Part shown: positions 43,853-55,250 of the stretch, one piece after another
Numbering within the stretch: position 1 is the first letter of the stretch
Layout: the number at the start of each line of letters is the position of its first letter
From: Streptomyces cathayae
GTDB lineage: Bacteria; Actinomycetota; Actinomycetes; Streptomycetales; Streptomycetaceae
Reading direction: 5' to 3'
NCBI RefSeq assembly: GCF_029760955.1
Contig: NZ_CP121682.1
Span: 3,720,001 to 3,784,000, forward strand
Length of the DNA: 64,000 bases
The notes under the pieces: model-generated
Told to the model about the DNA's origin: nothing
What the model saw: only the letters and a program-made list of their open reading frames with translations
Databases searched by the model: none
Translations under genes and position numbers: made by a program

Positions 43853-44188
43853 TCAGGCACTGCGGGGGGTGGCCGAGACGGTCCGGTGGGCAGGGGAGTC
43901 GGACTCCATCTGCTCATGGTCCCGCTGGTCGAGGTTCACAAAGATCATTCCGTACCGGATGGCACACCGCACGGGCTGCGGCGCCCCCCGAGGGCGCCGC
44001 AGGCACCGGTACGCCCGCACGTCCCCGTCCTCGTCGCGCGTGACCACGACCGGCTCACCGAACACGGTCACCATCAACGAGTCACCGCTGTGGGGGATGG
44101 CGGTGACCAGGTCGATGAAGTGCCAGCCCGATCGGTAGGCGGTGGCCATCTCGCGGCGGAAGGAACGGTCGTCGGGTGGTGTGGTCAT
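43853..44188 (-). CDS. Rieske-like protein lacking cluster ligands
   Basis: 111 aa. The sequence follows the start of a Rieske domain of aromatic-ring dioxygenases: VFGEPVVVTRDEDGDVRAYRC (core FGEPVVVTRDEDGDVRA), RGAPQPVRC where CPHRGA would be, and RYGMIFVNLDQRD. The Cys-X-His and Cys-X2-His ligand pairs are missing (LRRPRGA replaces CPHRGA), and the catalytic domain is absent, so no [2Fe-2S] cluster is expected. It lies 5 nt after a small secreted peptide gene and is divergent from the LuxR array. It could be a peptide-binding partner; the function is unknown. Confidence 0.65.
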   Translation of the reverse strand: MTTPPDDRSFRREMATAYRSGWHFIDLVTAIPHSGDSLMVTVFGEPVVVTRDEDGDVRAYRCLRRPRGAPQPVRCAIRYGMIFVNLDQRDHEQMESDSPAHRTVSATPRSA

Positions 44189-44193
44189 CGCTA

Positions 44194-44373
44194 TCAGTCC
44201 CAGGTGCTGTCGGCCGGGAAGACCGGCGGCTCGCCCTCGACGGCCACGGAAGACCGAGTGCTGCCCACATGGTGCGCGTCGCCCTCCGCGCCGGAGAGGC
44301 TGGCCAGCGTGCCGAAAGCCACAACGGCGGAGAAAGCGGCGACAAGCACCGAGCGAAGCATTCTGTTACGCAT
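44194..44373 (-). CDS. Small secreted peptide (59 aa), function unknown
   Basis: 59 aa. Basic start MRNRMLRSV, a hydrophobic stretch (LVAAFSAVVAFGTLASL) and a probable cleavage after SGA (about residue 29), leaving about 30 residues: EGDAHHVGSTRSSVAVEGEP, then PVFPADSTWD. No Cys. GAGGACGAA lies 9 nt before the ATG. It is coupled (5-nt gap) to the Rieske-like gene and divergent from the first LuxR-type regulator. A peptide signal or RiPP precursor is possible but no precedent is known to me. Confidence 0.6.
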   Translation of the reverse strand: MRNRMLRSVLVAAFSAVVAFGTLASLSGAEGDAHHVGSTRSSVAVEGEPPVFPADSTWD

Positions 44374-44505
44374 AGTCGGCTTCGTCCTCACTTGAAGGTC
44401 CCCTCTATCCCCCGTCACATAAGACGATGGCTCATTCGGGCACGTCATGGCCACACAATCGGTGCATCATGTTCCTGCACGTTCAGGACCCTGGGGGGTG
44501 GAGAT

Positions 44506-45492
44506 TTGGCAACAAACGGAACTAAGGCGACACATCCCCATTCCGTGACCACGCTGTGTCTGGAGGGGAGCCGCCTCTACGCGGACGCCCTCCGTGCCGG
44601 ACACATACTGCGCACGGACGTCGAGATCGCCCCCTGTCTGATGGAGCTTGCTCTCCTGCACCCCGATCCCGACGACCCGAGCCGGCTGCGGCCGGTGCCC
44701 CCGTCGGTGGCCCTGGCGCAGCGGCTCAACCCCATCGAGCGTGAGATCACCGAACGGCGCCGGCTGTCCATCACGCTCGCCGAGGCCTTCGAGCCATTCA
44801 TGGACATCAGCACGCAGGAAACCAGTCCGCCCCACTCCATCACCGTGCTGGAGGGCCTCGACCGCATCAACACCGCACTCGACCTGGCGACCGCCCAGTG
44901 CCACTCCGAGATGCTCACGGTGCAGCCGAGCGGCCACCGCCGCCCCGAGAACCGGCTTCTGGAAGCACTGGAACGGGACAGGCCGTTGATCGAACGCGGA
45001 GTGCGGATACGAACGCTCTACCAGCACACCGCCCGGTTCAGTCCGGACCGGCTCGCCTACGTCGACCACTTCACCGACGGCAAGGTGGAGTACCGCACCA
45101 TCGACGAACTCGTCGAACGGCTCGTCATCTGTGACGAGACCGTCGCCTTCATCCCCATCAGCGAGGACCGGCAAGTGGCCCTGGAACTCCGCCACCCCGG
45201 GCTGGTCCGCTATCTGGTCAAGGTCTTCGAGTTCATGTGGAACCGAGCCGTCCCGCTCAGTGCCGGTGCTCCCTATGAGACCGCCCCCGACGGCATCACC
45301 GAGATCCAGCATTCCATAGCGAAACTGCTCGTCGAGGGCCACGTCGACGAGGCGATCGCACGCCGTCTCGGCATGAATGTACGCACCTGCCGTGCCCACA
45401 TAGCCAAGCTGGCCTCCGCCCTCGGGAGCGGTAGCCGGGCCCAACTCGGTTACCTGATCGCCCAGTCGGGGATTCTCAACCAAAACCAGTGA
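44506..45492 (+). CDS. LuxR-type regulator with long N-terminal sensor-like region (paralogue 1)
   Basis: 328 aa. C-terminal LuxR helix-turn-helix: HSIAKLLVEGHVDEAIARRLGMNVRTCRAHIAKL (seen as AIARRLGMNVRTCRAHIAKL, residues about 285-320). The N-terminal 260 residues start TLCLEGSRLYADALRAG and include ILEGLDRI-like and LVICDETVAFIPISE-like (here LVICDETVAFIP) blocks, a TrmB/phospholipase-D-like C-terminal style of sensor fold. Not a receiver domain. The TTG at 44506 follows GGGGGG/GGAG and is the best start: upstream in-frame codons lack an SD. Paralogous to the genes at 45516 and 46474. Confidence 0.9.
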   Translation: MATNGTKATHPHSVTTLCLEGSRLYADALRAGHILRTDVEIAPCLMELALLHPDPDDPSRLRPVPPSVALAQRLNPIEREITERRRLSITLAEAFEPFMDISTQETSPPHSITVLEGLDRINTALDLATAQCHSEMLTVQPSGHRRPENRLLEALERDRPLIERGVRIRTLYQHTARFSPDRLAYVDHFTDGKVEYRTIDELVERLVICDETVAFIPISEDRQVALELRHPGLVRYLVKVFEFMWNRAVPLSAGAPYETAPDGITEIQHSIAKLLVEGHVDEAIARRLGMNVRTCRAHIAKLASALGSGSRAQLGYLIAQSGILNQNQ

Positions 45493-45515
45493 AGCCCAGG
45501 AGGTGCAAGCCCGGC

Positions 45516-46511
45516 GTGACTGCATGCACGCGTGATCACGAAGCGGAGGAACTGTGCGACTCGGGCGCCGAACTGTACGCCCGGGCACTACGTGACGGTC
45601 CGCTGCCCGCCGAAGAGGCTCGCGAGACGCCCTGCCCGGTCGACACCGGGCTGCTCCGCCCCTCCCTTGACGACCCCGGCCGGCTGGTGCCCGTCCCGCC
45701 GACGGTCGCCCTGCACCGACTGCTGCGATTTTCCGGAGAACGCGTCGCGGCCCAGCGGCGGCGGGAAGAACGGCTGACCGAGGTCTTCCAGCAGCTCATA
45801 CGGATCGGTGAACCGTGCGCGGAGGAGACGGGAGCTCCCACGCTCAGTGTTCTCAACGGCCAGGAGCGGATCAACGGCGCCGTCGCCGAGGCGCTGGGGG
45901 AAGGGACGACGGAGCTCCTCTGCATACAGCCCCACATCCATTACCACACGTCCGAGGACGCGAGAACGGCTCAGGCCGCGGCCATGGTTCGTGACCAGGA
46001 GTTCCTCGACCGCGGCGGCAGGATCCGCGTGCTCTACCCGCATACGCAGCGGCACATACCCCTGGTCGTCGCCCGTTACGAGCAGTTGAAGGGCGACGCT
46101 CAGGCACGCACCCTGGACGAGGTCGCCGGCCGCCTGATCATCATCGACGGGACGGTCGCCTACATCCCCGGTGACCGAGAAGCAGAACGCAGCGTCGCGT
46201 TGGAGATCCGGCACCCGGCCGTCATCACCTATCTGGTCAACATGTTCGACCGCTTCTGGCGACTGGCGACCCCCATGCACCCCCGAGCCGTCCAGCCGCC
46301 GTCCCTCAACGGCATCACCGCCCGCCAGCGGGCGATCGCCCGCTTCCTCGTCGAAGGCCACACGGATGCCGTCATCGCCGACCGCCTCGGCATGAACGTC
46401 CGCACCGCCCGTGTCCACATCGCCAAGCTCGCCTCGACGCTGGGCAGTCGGAGCCGGGCGCAGCTGGGCTATCTCATCGGGCAGTCCGGAATTCTCGACC
46501 GGGCAGAGTGA
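45516..46511 (+). CDS. LuxR-type regulator with long N-terminal sensor-like region (paralogue 2)
   Basis: 331 aa, same architecture: LCDSGAELYARALRDGPLP at the N-terminus, RLIIIDGTVAYIPGD before the C-terminal helix-turn-helix (RFLVEGHTDAVIADRLGMNV). The GTG at 45516 has AGGAGG 12 nt upstream; a GTG at 45489 overlapping the previous stop is the alternative. It is coupled to paralogue 1, and its 3' end overlaps paralogue 3 convergently by 38 bp. Confidence 0.9.
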   Translation: MTACTRDHEAEELCDSGAELYARALRDGPLPAEEARETPCPVDTGLLRPSLDDPGRLVPVPPTVALHRLLRFSGERVAAQRRREERLTEVFQQLIRIGEPCAEETGAPTLSVLNGQERINGAVAEALGEGTTELLCIQPHIHYHTSEDARTAQAAAMVRDQEFLDRGGRIRVLYPHTQRHIPLVVARYEQLKGDAQARTLDEVAGRLIIIDGTVAYIPGDREAERSVALEIRHPAVITYLVNMFDRFWRLATPMHPRAVQPPSLNGITARQRAIARFLVEGHTDAVIADRLGMNVRTARVHIAKLASTLGSRSRAQLGYLIGQSGILDRAE

Positions 46512-47505
46512 CCGCCGGCCCCCGCGCCCCGTCCAGGCCCGCCTGCGCGATCCGCACCCCCAGCTGCGTACGGCTCGCCGCGCCCAGCGTCTCCGAGAGA
46601 CGGGCGATGTGCGCCCGGCAGGTGCGCACGCTGATGCCGAGGCGTTCCGCTATCACCGCGTCCTGGTGGCCCTCCGCCAGCAGCGCCGCGATGGACCGCT
46701 CCCGGTGCGAGATGCCCTCGATGCCGGTGTCGGGCAGCGGGGCGGTCAGCGGGATGGCGAGGCGCCACAGGCGCTCGAAGACCGTGCCCAGGTACTCCAC
46801 CAGCGCCGGGTGGCGCAGCTCCAGCGCCATGGTGCGCTCGGAGTTGGCGGGGATGAAGGCGACCGTGCGGTCGAACAGGATCAGCCTCTCGGTCACCTCG
46901 TCCAGGGTCCGCGCCTCCACCGCGTCGCCCATCAGCTCCAGGTAGGTGTGCAGGCCCTGGCCGTGCCGGGCCACATGCGTGTAGAGGTCCCGCATCCGCA
47001 CCCCCCGCCCGCGCAGCGCCGTCGCCCGGTGCAGGCCCTCCGACAGCTCCGCCTCACGCCGGATACCGCCCGGCTGGACGGTGAGCACCTCGGTGGTGCA
47101 CGCCTGCGTCGCCTCGTCCATCGCGGCCTGGATGCGGGCCAGCCCGTCCAGCACCCGGATCGCCGGGCCCTCCCTGGCCGAGGGGGAGGCGGGCGGCTGG
47201 GGGCCGAGGCCGGTGTACCACTCGAACGCCGCGACGACCGAGCCCACCCGGCGCCGGCTCGCGCTGACCTCCTCGTACATCCCGCGCAGCAGCCGCGTCA
47301 TGACCTCCTGCGGGGCGGTCGGCACCAGCCAGTCCATGTCGTCCGGGTCCGGGTGCAGCAGGGCGAGTTCCAGCAGACAGGGCACCGGCGCCGCGTCCCG
47401 GCGCGGCACCCGGCCGCGCCGTACGGCCCGGGAGTACACGCGGTCCCCGGAGTCGCACAGCCGGTCAGCACCGTGCGGATGCTCGTCCGTCCCGCGCCCG
47501 GCCAT
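46474..47505 (-). CDS. LuxR-type regulator with long N-terminal sensor-like region (paralogue 3)
   Basis: 343 aa, same family: LCDSGDRVYSRAVRRG, CLLELALLHPDPDDMDWLVP (shared with paralogue 1 at CLMELALLHPDPDD), ILFDRTVAFIPANSER, and helix-turn-helix ALLAEGHQDAVIAERLGISV. Convergent with paralogue 2. It has the cleanest start (ATG at 47505, GGGACGGGGCG upstream). Upstream gap (47506-47788) is shared with the divergent fourth regulator. Confidence 0.92.
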   Translation of the reverse strand: MAGRGTDEHPHGADRLCDSGDRVYSRAVRRGRVPRRDAAPVPCLLELALLHPDPDDMDWLVPTAPQEVMTRLLRGMYEEVSASRRRVGSVVAAFEWYTGLGPQPPASPSAREGPAIRVLDGLARIQAAMDEATQACTTEVLTVQPGGIRREAELSEGLHRATALRGRGVRMRDLYTHVARHGQGLHTYLELMGDAVEARTLDEVTERLILFDRTVAFIPANSERTMALELRHPALVEYLGTVFERLWRLAIPLTAPLPDTGIEGISHRERSIAALLAEGHQDAVIAERLGISVRTCRAHIARLSETLGAASRTQLGVRIAQAGLDGARGPAVTLPGREFRTAR

Positions 47506-47788: not shown

Positions 47789-48160
47789 GTGACCAGGTGG
47801 GATGTCAAAAATTCGGCCAGCAAAGCTGGTTTGCCAATTTCTTCCGAGGAGGACCACAGGACGAAGAGCGACGTCGCGCCCAGCGGCGCCGGAACAGCCC
47901 AGGAAACAGCAGGCCGTCTCCGCGCCTCACAGAATTTCGACTTCGACCAACTGACGGACCGGGAGCGCCAGGTCCTCGCACTTCTCGCTGACGGCCCGTC
48001 CAATCGCGTGATCGCCAGACGGCTCGGCATAGCGGAACGCACCGCAAAAGCGCATCTGACAAATCTGATGCGAAAGCTGAACATTCAAACGCGGCTCGAA
48101 GCAGCTTTGATCTCCAATCTGCACAGAGAAGGCAGCCGCTTCTTCGAGGAGTGCCCTTAA
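47789..48160 (+). CDS. Short LuxR-type regulator next to the peptide gene
   Basis: 123 aa. Residues 1-50 are hydrophilic and unlike a known sensor (VKNSASKAGLPISSEEDH); residues 55-118 are a LuxR helix-turn-helix: QLTDRERQVLALLADGPSNRV, then RTAKAHLTNLMRKL. The GTG at 47789 has GGGGAGGGG 5-10 nt upstream. It is more A+T-rich than neighbours. 124 bp before the secreted-peptide gene and co-oriented; the likely pathway-specific activator, which is inference. Confidence 0.85.
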   Translation: MTRWDVKNSASKAGLPISSEEDHRTKSDVAPSGAGTAQETAGRLRASQNFDFDQLTDRERQVLALLADGPSNRVIARRLGIAERTAKAHLTNLMRKLNIQTRLEAALISNLHREGSRFFEECP

Positions 48161-48283
48161 GGGCTATGCCCCAAGGTCCAATGGGCAGAACAGCCTTCTG
48201 TGCGGCACCTTTATTCCCGTCGGCCGGACAGGCCGACCGGGCGACCCGCCTTGGGCGCCTCAATGGAATTAAGGGGAGGAACT

Positions 48284-48709
48284 ATGCACAAGAAGACACG
48301 CGCGGTCGCCGCTTCGGTGGTCGCCGCTGTGGCTCTGGGTGTGGCTGCACCCGCAGCGTCGGCCGTTTCCGCTCAGCGGACCGTTGCCGCTGTCGCGTCG
48401 TCGCACGGTGTCGCCGCGCCGGCGGCCGCGGTGGAGGTGTATCCCGAGGTCGAGCTCAGCTCCGAGGCCTCGGCCCGTGCGGAGGGGGAGCGGGTCGCGC
48501 AGGGCAAGCTCAGCGCGCTCAAGGAGCTGCTCAAGAAGAGCAAGCCGCTGTTCAAGGAAGCCGTGAAGGCCGCGAAGAAGGGGAAGGCCGCCTTCGACAA
48601 GTGGGTCAACAGCCTTTCGAACCTCAATCCTGTGAAGTGGGCGATCAAGGCGTCGCCGAGCTACATCATCACTGAGCTGATCGCCTGGCTGGCCCAGCAG
48701 GTCATCTGA
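48284..48709 (+). CDS. Secreted cationic helical peptide precursor, bacteriocin-like
   Basis: 141 aa in three parts: (1) signal peptide 1-27 (AVAASVVAAVALGVAAP, AxA cleavage AASA); (2) acidic pro-region about 28-73, with six Glu in the second half (VEVYPEVELSSEASARAEGE); (3) a cationic domain of 68 residues with 13 Lys, 4 Asp/Glu and three Trp (KKSKPLFKEAVKAAKKGKAA, DKWVNSLSNLNPVKWAIK, IITELIAWLAQQVI at the end), with predicted helices broken at NP and SP. Strong AAGGGGAGGAACT ribosome site. The final domain resembles the saposin-like aureocin A53/lacticin Q type in composition only. Confidence 0.85.
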   Translation: MHKKTRAVAASVVAAVALGVAAPAASAVSAQRTVAAVASSHGVAAPAAAVEVYPEVELSSEASARAEGERVAQGKLSALKELLKKSKPLFKEAVKAAKKGKAAFDKWVNSLSNLNPVKWAIKASPSYIITELIAWLAQQVI

Positions 48710-48717
48710 TCGAACGA

Positions 48718-48755
48718 AGCGGGGCTCCTCCCAGGTCTCGGGGAGGAGCCCCGCT
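48718..48755. terminator. Perfect 15-bp hairpin between the peptide gene and its transporter genes
   Basis: Stem 48718-48732 with 48741-48755 (AGCGGGGCTCCTCCC), 8-nt loop, 8 nt after the peptide stop and 18 nt before the next ATG. In bacteriocin operons such a partial terminator keeps the structural gene mRNA in excess over downstream transport/immunity genes. Confidence 0.93.
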
Positions 48756-48773
48756 CTAGAGGGGGAGGAACAT

Positions 48774-49040
48774 ATGAAGAAGCCGATCGGACAGACAGTC
48801 GCGGACAACATGTGGGGAATGGCGGCGTTGTTCGTCTGCGCTTCTTTCATTTTGTTTGTTTTCATCCGCACCGAGAACGCAAGAACGGTCGGCTGGGTCC
48901 TCTACTACTGCGGCTGGATTCCGCCCGTGAGCATGAGCCTCTGGTGTCTGGTACGGCGGGAAAGGCTCGGCATCGGCGCCCTGTTTTCATTCACCCTGCT
49001 CATCGTGTCCGGATTTCTCTTCTGGTTGAACCATGGCTGA
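48774..49040 (+). CDS. Small three-helix membrane protein, candidate immunity protein
   Basis: 88 aa, three hydrophobic segments: GMAALFVCASFILFVFI, VGWVLYYCGWIPPVSMSLW, IGALFSFTLLIVSGFLFWL. GGGGGAGGAACAT ribosome site before the ATG at 48774. It lies between the hairpin and the ABC ATPase, with which it overlaps by 8 bp. Position and size fit an immunity protein for the peptide at 48284, but no family is recognised. Confidence 0.85.
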   Translation: MKKPIGQTVADNMWGMAALFVCASFILFVFIRTENARTVGWVLYYCGWIPPVSMSLWCLVRRERLGIGALFSFTLLIVSGFLFWLNHG

Positions 49041-49950
49041 CCTGAAAGCCCCGTCGCCTTTGGTGACCGCCCAGGGACTGACCAAAGATTTCCGCGGACA
49101 CCGAGTTCTTTCCGGCGTTTGCCTGCAATTGTTCCCGCACCGGGTGACCGGATTCCTCGGGGCGAACGGGGCGGGAAAGACCACGGCCATCCGGATGATG
49201 CTCGGTCTGTTGCCGGGGAGCGGCGAAACGCTTTTCATGGGGCGCTCCCTCGCTCAGTGGCGTGCTCCGGCCGAGGTGGTCGGCGCAGTTCTCGGCGGCG
49301 TCGCCGGACACCCCGAGCACTCGGTGCGGATGCACTTGAGGATGGTGGCCGCCGGCATCGGCGTTCCAGGTACACGTGAGGACGAGGTCTTGAGCAGGGT
49401 CGGCATGCAGGAGGCCGCCGGGCTGCGCCTCGGGCGTCTTTCCCTCGGCATGGGTCAGCGCGTGGCGATCGCGCAGGCGCTCCTCGGCGATCCCCGTGTC
49501 CTGATCCTCGATGAGCCGACCAACGGACTCGACCCGCACTCCGTGCGTTGGCTGCGTGTCTTCCTCCGGGACTTCGCCGACGACGGTCGTGCCGTTCTGG
49601 TGTCGAGCCATCAGCTGGCCGAGATGGAGCAGTTGGCCGACGAGGTCGTCGTCCTGGCGAGGGGCCGAGTCGTCGCCGACACATCCATGGCAGAGCTCTC
49701 CGGGATCGCTCACGGACGAGTCGGCGTTCAGAGCCCCGCACTGGACAAGTTGACTCAACTGGTCGAGCAACAAGGCGGGACCCTCAAGGTCACCGGTCCC
49801 GGTACCGCCGGCATCACAGGGTTGTCGAGGTTCCAGGTCGGGGACCTGGCGGCCGAACACTCGGTGCCGTTGCACTGGTTGGACGAACGACTGACCTCGT
49901 TGGAGGAGTTCTACCTGTCCGTCGCCGATCAGGAGTTCGAGAGCCGATGA
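49033..49950 (+). CDS. ABC transporter ATP-binding protein (peptide export/immunity)
   Basis: 305 aa. Walker A LGANGAGKTTAIRMM (about residue 38), signature LSLGMGQRVAIAQALLGD (about 137), Walker B VLILDEPTNGLDPHSVRWL, and switch His in SSHQLAEME. Residues 215-300 form a C-terminal extension, as in bacitracin/lantibiotic-type BcrA/NisF-like immunity ATPases. ATGA overlap with the permease at 49947. Confidence 0.93.
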   Translation: MADLKAPSPLVTAQGLTKDFRGHRVLSGVCLQLFPHRVTGFLGANGAGKTTAIRMMLGLLPGSGETLFMGRSLAQWRAPAEVVGAVLGGVAGHPEHSVRMHLRMVAAGIGVPGTREDEVLSRVGMQEAAGLRLGRLSLGMGQRVAIAQALLGDPRVLILDEPTNGLDPHSVRWLRVFLRDFADDGRAVLVSSHQLAEMEQLADEVVVLARGRVVADTSMAELSGIAHGRVGVQSPALDKLTQLVEQQGGTLKVTGPGTAGITGLSRFQVGDLAAEHSVPLHWLDERLTSLEEFYLSVADQEFESR

Positions 49951-50843
49951 GGTCCCTGATGACCGACAAGGCGGACACCGCCTCCCATGACCGCGCGGTC
50001 CCGGTCGTCCCCCCGGCCGGGACCGCGCTCAAACGGGCTCTGAACTTCGAATGGCTGAGGTTGAAGGGCCTGCGCTCGACCTGGGCGGTGCTGGGGGCGC
50101 TGACCGTTCTGGCTCTGCTCAACGGCGTGCTGCTCCCGATGGAGGCCGGCGAGCCGGAGGGAGGAGGTCAGCCCTTCGTCGACGTCGCCCGGCTCGTCGA
50201 GACACTGCAGTTCAACGCAATTGCCATGCAACTCCCCCTCAGTGCTTGGCTTTTGGTGTTCGTGTTCGGAACCGGCCCGATCGCTTCGGAGTTCAGGCAC
50301 CAGACGGCGCGCACGGCCTGGTTGACGGTGGGTGGCCGTGGCCTGTCATATACGGCCAAGCTCCTCGTGGGTGCGCTGGGCGCGCTGACCGGTTCCACCG
50401 TTGGCCTCGGCATCAGCATCGGCGCAGGCTCGACCGCCCTTGCCGTGCGAGGACTGCCACAACCCGACTGGTCGGCGGCCTCCGGCCCCCTGCTGAGATA
50501 CCTGATCATCATGACGTTCCTGCCGGTATTGGCCGGAGGCCTGGCTGCGTTGGTCCGAAGCCGACTGGTGACGGTGCTCTCCATCGCCCTGTGGCCGCTT
50601 CTCCTCGAGCGGATGTTCGGCCTGGCCGTCGCATCGGTCACAGGTGCCGACGAGGTCCGGTCGTGGCTCCCGTTCGCAGCCGCCCGGGCGGCGATGAACG
50701 GTGCGGAGCAACCGGACGGGTTCACCGAGGCGCTGATCGGCAGCGACCTGGCCCCCTTGACGGGTCTGAGCACATTCTGCTTCTACGCGACCGTTCTCGC
50801 GTGCTGTGGTTGGCTGGGCTACCGGCGGCGGGCGGTCTCGTGA
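49947..50843 (+). CDS. ABC-2 type transporter permease
   Basis: 298 aa with about six hydrophobic segments (e.g. TWAVLGALTVLALLNGVLL, LSAWLLVFVFG, VVLSIALWPLLL-like LVTVLSIALWPLLLE). It carries the family's cytoplasmic GPIASEFRHQTARTAWLT, the EF/RHQT motif of BcrB/NatB-type permeases. Partner of the ATPase at 49033, from which its start overlaps 4 bp. Its stop overlaps the DUF418 start (GTGA). Confidence 0.92.
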   Translation: MRSLMTDKADTASHDRAVPVVPPAGTALKRALNFEWLRLKGLRSTWAVLGALTVLALLNGVLLPMEAGEPEGGGQPFVDVARLVETLQFNAIAMQLPLSAWLLVFVFGTGPIASEFRHQTARTAWLTVGGRGLSYTAKLLVGALGALTGSTVGLGISIGAGSTALAVRGLPQPDWSAASGPLLRYLIIMTFLPVLAGGLAALVRSRLVTVLSIALWPLLLERMFGLAVASVTGADEVRSWLPFAAARAAMNGAEQPDGFTEALIGSDLAPLTGLSTFCFYATVLACCGWLGYRRRAVS

Positions 50844-52024
50844 GCCGCCCGAGCACATCGGTGTCCACACGACGTCTGCCTGCCGTGGACGCGCTCCGGG
50901 GACTGGCCCTGCTGGGGATCCTCATGGTCAACAGCACGCAGATCATGGACCCCTATGCGTCGGAGGGGATCCGCGAGCCCGGCGCGGCCTTTGTGGACGG
51001 TTTCGCCATGTGGCTGGTGACGGCACTGGCCGCCACCAAGTTCTACCTGCTGTTCTCGTTCCTGTTCGGCTACAGCTTCACCCTCCAGAAGGCCTCGGCC
51101 GACCGGGAGAACGCGGACTTCACACCACGTTTCCTGCGCCGGTCACTGGGCCTGCTGGTGCTGGGCCTGGCGCACGCCGTGCTGCTGTACAACGGCGACA
51201 TCCTCATGACCTACGGCCTGCTCGGGCTGCTCCTCCTGTGCGCCGGGCGGATCACACCGGCCACCGCGGTGAGGAGCGCCGTCTGGATCTACGGGGTCTT
51301 CGGTCTCGCCCTGATGGGCCTGGGCGCACTCGCGGCATTCGACCCAGGCGGAGGTGGCGCCGAGAAGGAGAAGATCGCAGAAGCCGTGAGCGCCTACCGC
51401 GGCGATGCGGGCACGGTCCTCCAAGCGAATCTGGACCGCTTGCCGGATGCCGTCCTCGGTGTTCTCATCATGGCTCCCGGGGTTTTCGCCGCCTTCCTCC
51501 TCGGGCTGGCCGCAGGCAAGCGGAACCTGCTTTCCCGCGACGGCACGTCCCGTTCCCGGCTGGTCCGGGGCGCCGCCGTCGGACTGATCGTCGGGGTGCC
51601 GGGAGCGCTCTTCTTCGCATCCGCCTCGGTGGGGCCGCTCGATGAGCGGTGGCAGTACCTGGGACTCGGCGTGGGAATACTGACGGCTCCCGCCCTGACG
51701 TGTGCTTACGCCTGCCTGCTGCTGCTCTTGCTCCGTTCGCCGTGGGGAGACGGGGCCCGGCGGTGGCTCGCCCCGGCGGGCCGGATGGCGCTGACGAACT
51801 ACCTGACGCAGTCCGTGGTCCTGACCGTCCTCGCCACCGCCTACGGTTTCTCCCTCTACGGGCGCATGGGCACGGCCGCGCTGATGGTGCTGGTGTGCGC
51901 CGTGTACGGCGTTCAACTCGCGATCAGCGACGCATGGTCGCGGCGGTTTCGGCACGGCCCCGCCGAGTGGTTGCTCCGGATCATCACCCTGGCAGGCACG
52001 GCGCAAGGACGTGCCGATCGGTGA
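50840..52024 (+). CDS. DUF418 membrane protein
   Basis: 394 aa with about nine helices. Family pattern: RLPAVDALRGLALLGILMVN at the N-terminus, FYLLFSFLFGYSFTLQ, and the C-terminal APAGRMALTNYLTQSV (RMxLTNYLxQS) motif. DUF418 proteins are membrane proteins of unknown function found with exporters. Start GTG at 50840, coupled to the permease. It is the last gene of the peptide operon, before a bidirectional terminator. Confidence 0.92.
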   Translation: MSRPSTSVSTRRLPAVDALRGLALLGILMVNSTQIMDPYASEGIREPGAAFVDGFAMWLVTALAATKFYLLFSFLFGYSFTLQKASADRENADFTPRFLRRSLGLLVLGLAHAVLLYNGDILMTYGLLGLLLLCAGRITPATAVRSAVWIYGVFGLALMGLGALAAFDPGGGGAEKEKIAEAVSAYRGDAGTVLQANLDRLPDAVLGVLIMAPGVFAAFLLGLAAGKRNLLSRDGTSRSRLVRGAAVGLIVGVPGALFFASASVGPLDERWQYLGLGVGILTAPALTCAYACLLLLLLRSPWGDGARRWLAPAGRMALTNYLTQSVVLTVLATAYGFSLYGRMGTAALMVLVCAVYGVQLAISDAWSRRFRHGPAEWLLRIITLAGTAQGRADR

Positions 52025-52117: not shown

Positions 52118-53224
52118 TCACTTCAGGCCGACCGCGTCGCACGCCTCCTTGTACTGCGCCGTGCAGATGTCCGCCACCTTGTAGAACCCGTCGGAGATGA
52201 CCGTGTTCTTGATGTTGTCCTTCGTCAGGGCCACCACGGGCACGAGCTGCGCCGGGATGTCCTTGTCCGTGGGGCTGTCCACCCGCTCACGGGTCAGCGC
52301 GTCGAACTGGATGCCCTTGCCCTGGACCCGCGCCACGGCCATCTCCGCGGCGTTGTCGGCCTCCAGCGGGTAGGACTTGTAGACACTCATGAACTGCTCG
52401 CCCGCGATGATCCGCTGCACTCCCGCCAGTTCGGCGTCCTGGCCGGTGATCGGGGGCAGCTCGGTCACACCGGCGTTCTTGAGCGCCTTGACGATGGCGC
52501 CCGCCATGGTGTCGTTGGCCGAGTAGACGGCGGCGATGTCGTCCTTGCCGATCGCGTTGATCGCCTCGACCATGTTGGCCTCGGCGTTCTCCGGCGACCA
52601 GTCCTCGGTGTCGTAGGACTTGGCGATGGTGACCTTGCCCTTGAGCTCCGACAGCGCGCCCGCCTTGAACTGCTTGGCGTTCGGGTCGGTCGGGGAGCCG
52701 TTCATCATGACGATCTTGCTGGTGGCCGCCCCGTCGCCGCCGAGCTTCTCCAGCAGGGAACGGCCCTGGACCTCGCCGACCAGCTCGTTGTCGAAGGAGA
52801 TGTACGCGTCGATCGGGCCCTCGGCCAGCCGGTCGTAGGCGATGACCGGGATGCCTGCGTCCTTGGCCTTCTTCACGTCCTCGGCGATGGCCTTCGAGTC
52901 GACCGCGTCCAGCACGATGACGTCGACCCTGTCGTCGATCATCTGCTGCATCTGGCTCGACTGCTTGTCGGCGTCCGCCTCGGCGTTGGCGTAGGCGACC
53001 TTCCCCTTGTCGTTGGTGAGCGACTCCACCTTCTTCTTGAAGATGGGGTAGTCGAACTGCTCGTACCGGGTGTTGGCCTTCTCCGGGAGCAGGAGTCCGA
53101 CCGTGATGTCGTTCCCCTTCGTGGGGCTCGCGTCGTCGCTACTCCCTGTCGCGTTGATCACTCCGCAACCGGCAAGCATGACGGACATCGAGGTGGCGGC
53201 CACTGATATGGCGATACGACGCAT
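52118..53224 (-). CDS. Sugar ABC transporter substrate-binding lipoprotein (xylose-type)
   Basis: 368 aa. Lipoprotein signal with lipobox LAGCG (Cys about residue 20), then periplasmic-binding protein fold I: ITVGLLLPEKANTRYEQFD, AEADADKQSSQMQQMIDD, VDVIVLDAVDSKAIAED, IPVIAYDRLAEGP, ISFDNELVG, and PPITGQDAELAGVQRI, all typical of XylF/ChvE-type aldopentose/glucose-binding proteins. No ATPase or permease partner gene is beside it; the stop faces the peptide cluster. It must work with subunits encoded elsewhere or is orphaned. Confidence 0.94.
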   Translation of the reverse strand: MRRIAISVAATSMSVMLAGCGVINATGSSDDASPTKGNDITVGLLLPEKANTRYEQFDYPIFKKKVESLTNDKGKVAYANAEADADKQSSQMQQMIDDRVDVIVLDAVDSKAIAEDVKKAKDAGIPVIAYDRLAEGPIDAYISFDNELVGEVQGRSLLEKLGGDGAATSKIVMMNGSPTDPNAKQFKAGALSELKGKVTIAKSYDTEDWSPENAEANMVEAINAIGKDDIAAVYSANDTMAGAIVKALKNAGVTELPPITGQDAELAGVQRIIAGEQFMSVYKSYPLEADNAAEMAVARVQGKGIQFDALTRERVDSPTDKDIPAQLVPVVALTKDNIKNTVISDGFYKVADICTAQYKEACDAVGLK

Positions 53225-53601
53225 GCGAGGGCTCACTTCAGGTGCGTTTTGGGCGTGGGCACAACATTGCGGCCCATGTGACTGAAAAGCCAACGCTTCA
53301 GCCACCACTGGCGTCAAGAGCAACTACTTAACGAGATGAACACGACACGGTGCGCTGAAGTCGTGAGGGGCCGGCGAAAGACTCGCACAGATCCCCTGGA
53401 GAAGCACACATCCGCTGATCACAGGCGTGCGCGGGGCGCACGGGACGGGGAGTGAGGGGATGTCAGCCGCGTGCACACACGTGAAGGGCCTGGAGGTTCG
53501 GACGAACCTCCAGGCCCTTCAGGACACTTCACTTTTCGGCCAAACGGAACTTTCCCGTCAGCCGGACCACCTGGCCGAACCACCCGGCCGGGTCGGTCGG
53601 G
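53225..53601. other. 377-bp region between the sugar-binding protein and hspR
   Basis: Divergent promoter zone for the sugar-binding gene (a possible TTGACG at 53317-53312 on the minus strand) and the hspR-operon terminator at 53483. The region 53330-53470 holds no gene. Confidence 0.6.
53483..53520. terminator. Strong hairpin terminator of the dnaK operon
   Basis: A perfect 18-bp stem (53483-53500 with 53503-53520), 2-nt gap at the centre, 82 bp after the hspR stop on the minus strand. Confidence 0.95.
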
Positions 53602-54060
53602 TCAGTCGGGCTGCTGCTGACGCTTCGGCCGCCACACCACCAGCGCGCTGGTCTGCTGCACCTCCTGATACGGCACCAGGTCCCGGCGGTACGACGCGTG
53701 CACCGCGGCCTCGCGCTGCCGCATGGTCGCCGCCGCGCCGTCCAGCGCGCCCTCCAGCTCCGCCACCCGGGCCTGCAGCGCGGCGACCTGGTTCTCCAGT
53801 TCGATGATGCGCTTGATGCCGGCCAGGTTGATGCCCTCCGCCTGCGACAGCTGCTGCACCTGACGGAGCAGCTCGATGTCACGGGCCGAGTAGCGGCGGC
53901 CCCGGCCGGCGGCACGGTCCGGCGAGACCAGCCCCAGCCTGTCGTACTGGCGCAGGGTCTGCGGATGCAGACCGGAGAGCTGAGCCGCCACCGAAATGAC
54001 GTAGACCGGTGTGTCCTGCGTCAGTTCGTACGGATTGCGTCGACGGCCGTCCATCTCCAT
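53602..54060 (-). CDS. hspR: HspR heat-shock repressor (MerR family)
   Basis: 152 aa. MerR-type winged helix-turn-helix in residues 13-80: YVISVAAQLSGLHPQTLRQY, GRGRRYSARDIELLRQVQQL, then a dimer helix ELENQVAALQARVAELEGAL. It binds HAIR sites with DnaK as co-repressor in Streptomyces. The start ATG at 54060 makes a 1-nt TGATG overlap with dnaJ; a TTG at 54063 is possible. Its own operon and clpB (43192) carry HAIR sites, closing the feedback loop. Confidence 0.96.
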   Translation of the reverse strand: MEMDGRRRNPYELTQDTPVYVISVAAQLSGLHPQTLRQYDRLGLVSPDRAAGRGRRYSARDIELLRQVQQLSQAEGINLAGIKRIIELENQVAALQARVAELEGALDGAAATMRQREAAVHASYRRDLVPYQEVQQTSALVVWRPKRQQQPD

Positions 54061-55250
54061 CAAGCTCCCTTCGCGGCCTGGAACAGCTCCGCCCGCGGAT
54101 CCTCACCCTCGGTCGCCTCGCGATACGCCTCCAGTGCATCACGAGCCTTCCCCGGCAGGTCCTTGGGAACACTCACCTCCACGGTGACCAGCAGATCGCC
54201 GCGCGAGCCGTCCTTGCGGACCGCTCCCTTGCCGCGGGCCCGCATGGTCCGCCCGTTGGGCGTGCCGGGAGGCAGCTTCAGCGTGACCGGCGGACCGCCG
54301 AGCGTCGGGACGCGGATCTCCCCGCCGAGGGCCGCCTCCGGGTAGGTGACCGGGACGGTGACGGTGAGATTGTCGTCCCGGCGGCCGAACACCGGGTGAC
54401 TGCCGACGTGCACGACGACGTACAGGTCGCCCGCCGGACCGCCGCGCTCGCCCGGTGCGCCCTTGCCGCGCAGCCGGATCCGCTGGCCGTCGCTGACACC
54501 CGCCGGGATGCGCACCTGCATCGTCCGCGAGGACTTGGCCCGGCCGCTGCCCTTGCAGATGTCGCAGGGGTTCTCCGCGATCAGGCCCCGGCCCTTGCAG
54601 TCCGGGCACGGGTCGGTGAGCGAGAAGCCCCCGCCGCTGCCCCGGGCGACCTGCCCGGTGCCGACGCAGGTCGGGCACACGCGCGGTGTGCCGTTCTTGT
54701 CGCCGGTGCCCGAACAGCCCTTGCAGGCCTGCTGGGAGGACATCCGCAGCGGGACCGTCGCCCCCTCGATGGCCTCGGTGAAGCTCAGGGTGACCTCGGA
54801 CTCGATGTCCTGGCCGCGCCGGGGCTGGGTGCGCGTGGTGCCGGTGCCGCCGCGGTTGAACAGCCCGCCGAAGACGTCACCTATCCCGCCGCCGAACCCG
54901 CCGGCGCCGGCCTGGCCGCCCTGCCCGCCCTGGCCGCCTCCGAAGAGGTCACCCAGGTCGAAGTTGAACGACCCGGCGCCGCCCGCCCCCGGACCCGGCC
55001 GGAAGCCACCGCCGCCGAAGAGCGACCGGGCCTCGTCGTACTCCTTGCGCTTCTTGGGGTCGCCGAGGACGTCGTTCGCCTCGGAGATCTCCTTGAACCG
55101 CTCCTCCGCCTTGGCGTTGCCCTTGTTGGCGTCCGGGTGGTACTCGCGGGCGAGCTTCCGGTACGCCTTCTTGATCTCGGCCTCGGTGGCGTCCTGAGGC
55201 ACGCCGAGGACCTTGTAGTAGTCCTTCTCGATGAAGTCCTTGGTACTCAT
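54060..55250 (-). CDS. dnaJ: Chaperone protein DnaJ
   Basis: 396 aa type I DnaJ. J-domain with HPD in [11 protein letters not shown] (about residue 35), Gly/Phe-rich region 75-140 ([15 protein letters not shown]), four zinc-binding repeats [24 protein letters not shown] and CDICKGSG, then the C-terminal substrate-binding and dimer domains. Stimulates DnaK ATPase. 90 bp separate it from grpE, in the same operon. Confidence 0.98.

Follow-up and report, generated by a model that had tools for sequence, protein, structure and literature searches.

The closest described counterparts of the system considered here are the Sec-secreted, protease-activated bacteriocins of Propionibacterium. In excerpts of PMC5756557, PAMP is described as made with a Sec signal and as a longer precursor, its active C-terminal part being released once outside the cell, and propionicin T1 as having a Sec signal, a mature form of 65 amino acids (aa) and, 68 nt behind its gene, an ATP-binding cassette (ABC)-type gene thought to give resistance. 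Actinomycetota are called under-explored for bacteriocins in excerpts of PMC11580447, where aureocin-like leaderless peptides are also predicted in Streptomyces. The subject of this analysis is a cluster of six genes at positions 47789-52024 of a 64,000-nt stretch of the Streptomyces cathayae genome (contig NZ_CP121682.1, genome size 7.6 Mb), the whole of which is referred to below as the window. All six genes are on the + strand, to which all feature coordinates below refer, and encode, in order, a LuxR-type helix-turn-helix (HTH) protein, a prepro-peptide, a small membrane protein, an ABC ATPase, an ABC permease and a DUF418 protein; from the membrane protein gene onward the frames overlap by 8, 4 and 4 bases. 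This gene set and its positions, as listed in a first-pass annotation of the sequence, were confirmed by open reading frame (ORF) and Pfam checks. With a probability of roughly 70%, we read the operon as encoding a Sec-secreted pro-bacteriocin that is activated outside the cell; the small membrane protein would then provide immunity, and the ABC pair a protection of the LanFE kind.

The precursor gene (48284..48709) encodes a 141-aa protein comprising a signal peptide (residues 1-27, ending in an AxA motif at residue 27), a pro-region (residues 28-73, with 6 acidic residues and an isoelectric point (pI) of 4.75) and a cationic helical domain (residues 74-141; 48503..48706), the leader and both cut sites being predictions from the sequence and alignment. 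The C-terminal domain contains 13 Lys, no Arg, 4 acidic residues, 3 Trp and no Cys (pI 10.1, charge +8.8), so that the composition reported in the first-pass annotation is borne out by counts. As that annotation expected of a bacteriocin, the predicted signal cleavage site is conserved: its alanines are near-invariant across the alignment, the rows of which were retrieved by searches that took in the leader as well. Compared with the window copy, the C-terminal part is the most conserved (mean identity 72%, 31 rows); the signal comes second at 66% (29 rows) and the pro-region last at 46% (30 rows). The best-kept core of the C-terminal part lies around WVNSLSNxNPVKW. When residues 71-141 alone were modelled with AlphaFold2 (45 aligned sequences), a confident structure of five helices was obtained (predicted local distance difference test score 93.4, predicted template modelling score 0.80). 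The model has the size and helix number of the saposin-like bacteriocins, which are described with four or five helices in excerpts of PMC6131525 and PMC11580447, and the comparison is based on these two properties.

As far as the excerpted descriptions go, the cluster and the two Propionibacterium systems have in common an origin in the Actinomycetota, a Sec signal, an ABC gene behind the peptide gene (propionicin T1) and release outside the cell (PAMP; proposed here). By sequence, the precursor resembles the PAMP type in that a signal peptide is followed by a further N-terminal region and then by a cationic C-terminal domain. In contrast, the peptide and ABC genes are here separated by a gene for a small transmembrane (TM) protein, and the mature part, which belongs to an unnamed family, is predicted to fold into five helices. 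The operon would thus be likened to the Propionibacterium bacteriocins by its features, and not by its sequence, and by this analogy it may work in a similar way.

Leaderless bacteriocins such as aureocin A53 and lacticin Q also show a partial likeness in the excerpts available: in their case too the domain is small and cationic, contains Trp and consists of four to five helices, and membrane and ABC genes lie nearby. They have no leader, whereas the window family has a conserved leader and pro-region; the family is set apart from the Streptomyces peptides of the PMC11580447 excerpts by description and not by sequence comparison. PF11758 (Bacteriocin_IIi) is absent from the families matched by 53 relatives of the precursor at E ≤ 0.1, and by this feature and by its predicted leader the peptide is not a leaderless bacteriocin. 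No PH-domain, as in aureocin A53- or lacticin Q-like systems, was matched among ten proteins scanned with Pfam. The lactococcin 972 model is likewise not among the 16 Pfam families matched by any of the 53 relatives, and no Pfam or NCBIfam model is common to more than three of these relatives. With respect to lanthipeptides, including SapB, there is no Cys in residues 74-141, and Pfam identified no lanthionine synthetase gene among the precursor and nine neighbours.

The precursor itself fits no Pfam or NCBIfam model. Among 5.8 billion proteins, 31 precursor homologues were found at E ≤ 0.01, the closest (95% identity) being from Streptomyces and all those with an organism name being from Streptomyces or Kitasatospora. 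None of the 31 carries a functional name. When a distant member served as the query, 64 proteins with new identifiers were listed, nameless save for one apparent misname, a 141-aa protein (P0079) labelled as a succinate dehydrogenase subunit. A search with the single sequence produced matches in 12 of 392 genomes of the genus, and a profile of 27 members produced matches in 62; by our own count, the match extends to model position 115 or beyond in 30 of these 62 genomes, while the others, with coverage reaching little beyond the leader, may carry other cargo. Across the order, the profile matched 55 of 391 genomes in 2 of 10 genera, the sole matching genome outside the genus being matched in the leader only (E 8.9e-5). 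The patchy spread within the genus argues for a bacteriocin.

For comparison of gene neighbourhoods we assembled 58 rows, consisting of the window, L029-L080 without L031 (which is the window), L002, L003, L020, L024, L027 and L028. L029-L080 were drawn from the genus and order profile searches, with at most the best 30 loci taken from each; removal of the duplicates L047, L003 and L020 left 55 distinct loci, a subset of all profile matches. The alignment rows of L057 and L058 begin without a start codon.

The gene directly behind the peptide gene (48774..49040) encodes a multi-TM protein of 88 aa. In the first-pass annotation it was described as having three helices; three can be seen by eye, but a simple hydropathy script finds two (two or three in homologues), so that the number three is likely and not settled. 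That annotation also proposed a search for homologues always followed by the same membrane protein. A small multi-TM ORF (65-170 aa, at least 2 segments, start at most 260 bases past the peptide stop) follows the peptide gene at 47 of the 55 loci. Behind control genes, such an ORF is found in 10 of 212 cases (Fisher p 6e-34, computed as if all loci were independent, which does not hold for related ones). The association is common and not invariable, and the type of membrane protein varies. An ORF with at least 3 hydrophobic segments is found at 31 of the 55 loci and behind 6 of the 212 control genes. The window and 14 longer loci supplied the controls, from which genes with peptide-like motifs had been removed; the controls are not length-matched. 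When peptides and TM proteins from the 47 loci were clustered, the adjusted mutual information of their types was 0.78 (clustering at E 1e-9) or 0.42 (1e-6), and none of 1000 shuffles reached as high a value in either case. The two types thus appear largely to change together, as cognate immunity would give.

The ABC ATPase gene (49033..49950; PF00005 (ABC_tran), E 3.6e-22) is followed by a gene (49947..50843) that has no Pfam match and is predicted, from its position and hydrophobic segments, to encode an ABC-2 type permease; homologues of the latter have five or six such segments. The best NCBIfam model of the ATPase is TIGR03740 (lantibiotic protection). This model and the adjacent integral-membrane partner gene recall the LanFEG self-protection transporters; however, the score of 149.7 bits is far below the cut-off of 309.75, and the mature peptide part is without Cys. 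A related ATPase is encoded within 1.5 kb of the peptide gene at 23 of the 55 loci, with identity of at least 57% at 19 of them and of 43-46% at four, which is no better than for paralogues. The test in the opposite direction is stronger. At a cut of our own choosing (E ≤ 1e-95, five candidates scored per genome), 11 of 392 genomes contain ATPase homologues, and each of these 11, the one in the window included, adjoins a family peptide gene: ten are on the same strand approximately 0.3-0.7 kb behind it and one (G363) is divergent. There are 143 ABC matches in the window's own genome, and the one that scores second to the cluster ATPase shares 40% identity with it. Because of this distance and because the close homologues adjoin peptide genes in 11 of 11 cases, the ATPase subfamily looks dedicated to these peptides. 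On the grounds of position, dedication and co-diversification, the 88-aa protein is a probable immunity protein and the ABC pair a probable LanFE-like self-protection system.

The last gene of the cluster (50840..52024; PF04235, E 7.2e-39) encodes the DUF418 membrane protein and is an optional part. In L001, L002 and L017 the ATPase gene is likewise followed by genes for the permease and a DUF418 protein; L003 has the permease, and DUF418 was not found there. Family matches also occur in five S. anulatus plasmid records. Two of these plasmids were examined (L027 and L028), both of which are linear and carry, in this order, genes for the peptide, a TM protein (annotated as 87 and 79 aa), the ATPase, a hypothetical protein that matches the cluster permease at approximately 41% and an M23 peptidase. 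DUF418 is not annotated in these loci. For the M23 peptidase that ends the plasmid copies, a role in processing or as a further antibacterial is conceivable.

A hairpin that the first-pass annotation did not list, with a perfect 15-bp stem and an 8-nt loop (48718..48755), separates the peptide gene from the membrane protein gene; the RNA fold of 48700-48775 has an energy of -39.1 kcal/mol (z -3.2). Hairpins of other sequence occupy the corresponding position in L002 and L017, among other loci, and none is found in L001. A strong hairpin (score of at least 12, at most 150 bases behind the peptide gene) is present at 32 of the 55 loci, compared with 26 of the 212 control genes. As the window hairpin has no T-run and was not listed by the terminator scan, its role as a partial terminator or attenuator is something that we infer and consider possible.

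What was computed here is the order of the genes, the conservation of the family and of its leader, the helical model, the TM/ABC association and co-diversification; from these we infer the killing, proteolytic activation, immunity, attenuation and target of the following model. Because the leader fits, the signal peptide would take the precursor out of the cell via Sec. Masked by the acidic pro-region, the cationic five-helix domain would stay inactive until the pro-region is cut off by an extracellular protease, a course of events suggested by the opposite charges of the two regions and by the analogy with PAMP. Streptomyces secrete many extracellular proteases. The freed domain of approximately 68 residues would then damage the membranes of competing, probably related, bacteria. 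The hairpin may stop most transcripts behind the peptide gene, giving an excess of peptide over protection genes. In the producer, the 88-aa protein would confer cognate immunity, and the ATPase and permease would clear peptide from the membrane in the manner of LanFE pumps; for the DUF418 protein, envelope modification is a possible role.

Several observations weigh against this model. The family has no member of known activity; apart from the apparently misnamed P0079, its named homologues are "hypothetical", "secreted" or "uncharacterized". Neither Foldseek nor VIA-align matched the model of residues 71-141 to a solved fold, those of bacteriocins included. No peptidase was found among the six cluster genes in the Pfam scan. 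The TM counts come from the simple hydropathy script. The first-pass annotation regarded homologues without transporter neighbours as evidence against a bacteriocin, and part of the family is of this kind: a related ABC ATPase is lacking within 1.5 kb at 32 of the 55 loci, and a small TM ORF at eight (L033, L036, L037, L043, L052, L064, L072 and L073). A strong hairpin is missing at 23 of the 55 loci. Among the control genes, those of small secreted type form a small set, in which 2 of 14 are followed by a TM ORF and 3 of 14 by a hairpin. Finally, shared descent of linked genes also yields co-diversification of peptide and TM protein without any functional tie. On the sequence evidence taken together, the bacteriocin interpretation of the first-pass annotation appears well supported, though unproved.

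The strongest rival explanation is a developmental or signalling peptide, in which a secreted amphipathic helical protein would act on its own colony as a surfactant or pheromone under a LuxR regulator, with the TM and ABC proteins used for export or sensing. The small LuxR gene upstream, the restriction of named homologues to Streptomyces or Kitasatospora and of order-wide matches to two genera, and the fact that SapB is also accompanied by ABC and LuxR genes all fit this explanation. We nevertheless regard it as unlikely for four reasons. First, presence in only 62 of 392 genus genomes does not suit a conserved developmental role. Second, plasmid copies exist. Third, diverse mature domains are carried on one leader, with TM types to match. 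Fourth, residues 74-141 have no Cys. A less likely explanation still is a self-directed, cannibalism-type toxin, for which SdpC and SdpI of Bacillus are the model: the peptide would lyse non-expressing sister cells in development and the TM protein would shield the expressing cells. The anatomy of secreted toxin and small membrane protein is the same, and a LuxR-type gene stands in front, but a patchy, partly plasmid-borne spread with strong diversification is better explained by competition between strains. A circular bacteriocin of the enterocin AS-48 kind, its mature domain joined head to tail, is very improbable. The cluster shares with this class (as described in excerpts of PMC6131525) a cationic peptide of approximately 70 residues and five helices, ABC genes and a membrane protein that is small, cationic and hydrophobic. 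By the feature tested it is nevertheless not of this class: there is no SpoIIM/DUF95 gene nearby, as the first-pass annotation had observed, the single genomic match (G000:C1:4763446) being approximately 1 Mb away.

The window cluster belongs to a large family of probable pro-bacteriocins in Streptomyces that has so far gone unannotated. We also lean towards the broader view that one conserved Sec leader exports many cationic helical domains with matching TM immunity proteins, often with a hairpin attenuator and in several cases with an ABC pump, which would amount to an undescribed, zymogen-like superfamily, the genus's own class of pro-bacteriocins. To our knowledge, few ribosomal, unmodified bacteriocins have come from Streptomyces, the classic antibiotic makers. 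If the reading is correct, between 30 (those with a match to model position 115 or beyond) and 62 of the 392 sampled genus genomes would encode an unannotated protein antibiotic, mostly together with an immunity gene, and the TM genes would be candidate immunity factors. As the C-terminal domain has no Cys, its direct production and testing should be feasible.

Some of the 55 loci, L056, L078 and L080 for example, have the common leader and a different mature domain. In L025/L078, L056 and L080, the shared leader and quite different C-terminal domain are followed by a membrane protein of 163-169 aa with three to four segments; here the leader appears to be held in common with cargo and partner swapped. 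L020 contains tandem peptide-like precursors with different mature domains (L020:7442-7930 and L020:8485-8916), one of which has eight Trp in its last 68 residues, and divergent ABC genes; this is possibly a two-peptide system. At L024:8341-8571 the assembly places the leader and the mature part of the peptide gene in different frames, while the adjacent TM and ABC frames are open. The genome of L064 carries two equal-scoring copies in opposite orientation (G424:C1:36215 and 8247406), one close to each end of a contig approximately 8.3 Mb long, which would fit terminal inverted repeats.

The first gene of the cluster (47789..48160, GTG start) encodes a single-domain LuxR/GerE HTH protein of 123 aa (PF00196 (GerE), E 2.7e-19) and is likely the cluster regulator. 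A homologue is found directly 5' of the peptide gene in L001, L002, L017 and L019, and approximately 3.6 kb upstream of the first of the two peptide genes in L020. G+C content at third codon positions is 0.67-0.86 in the cluster, compared with a mean of 0.885 (standard deviation 0.070) for 56 window ORFs, and the small LuxR gene is the only clear outlier. Further upstream (44176-47505) are three LuxR-type genes encoding approximately 340-440 aa, two on the + strand and one on the - strand; these are kept beside the cluster in L001, L002 and L017 (52-86% identity) and were not found in L003. Behind the cluster (52118-55250) is an ordinary gene for a xylose-type ABC binding protein, and a MerR/HspR-like and DnaJ pair, also ordinary, was read by eye on the minus strand.

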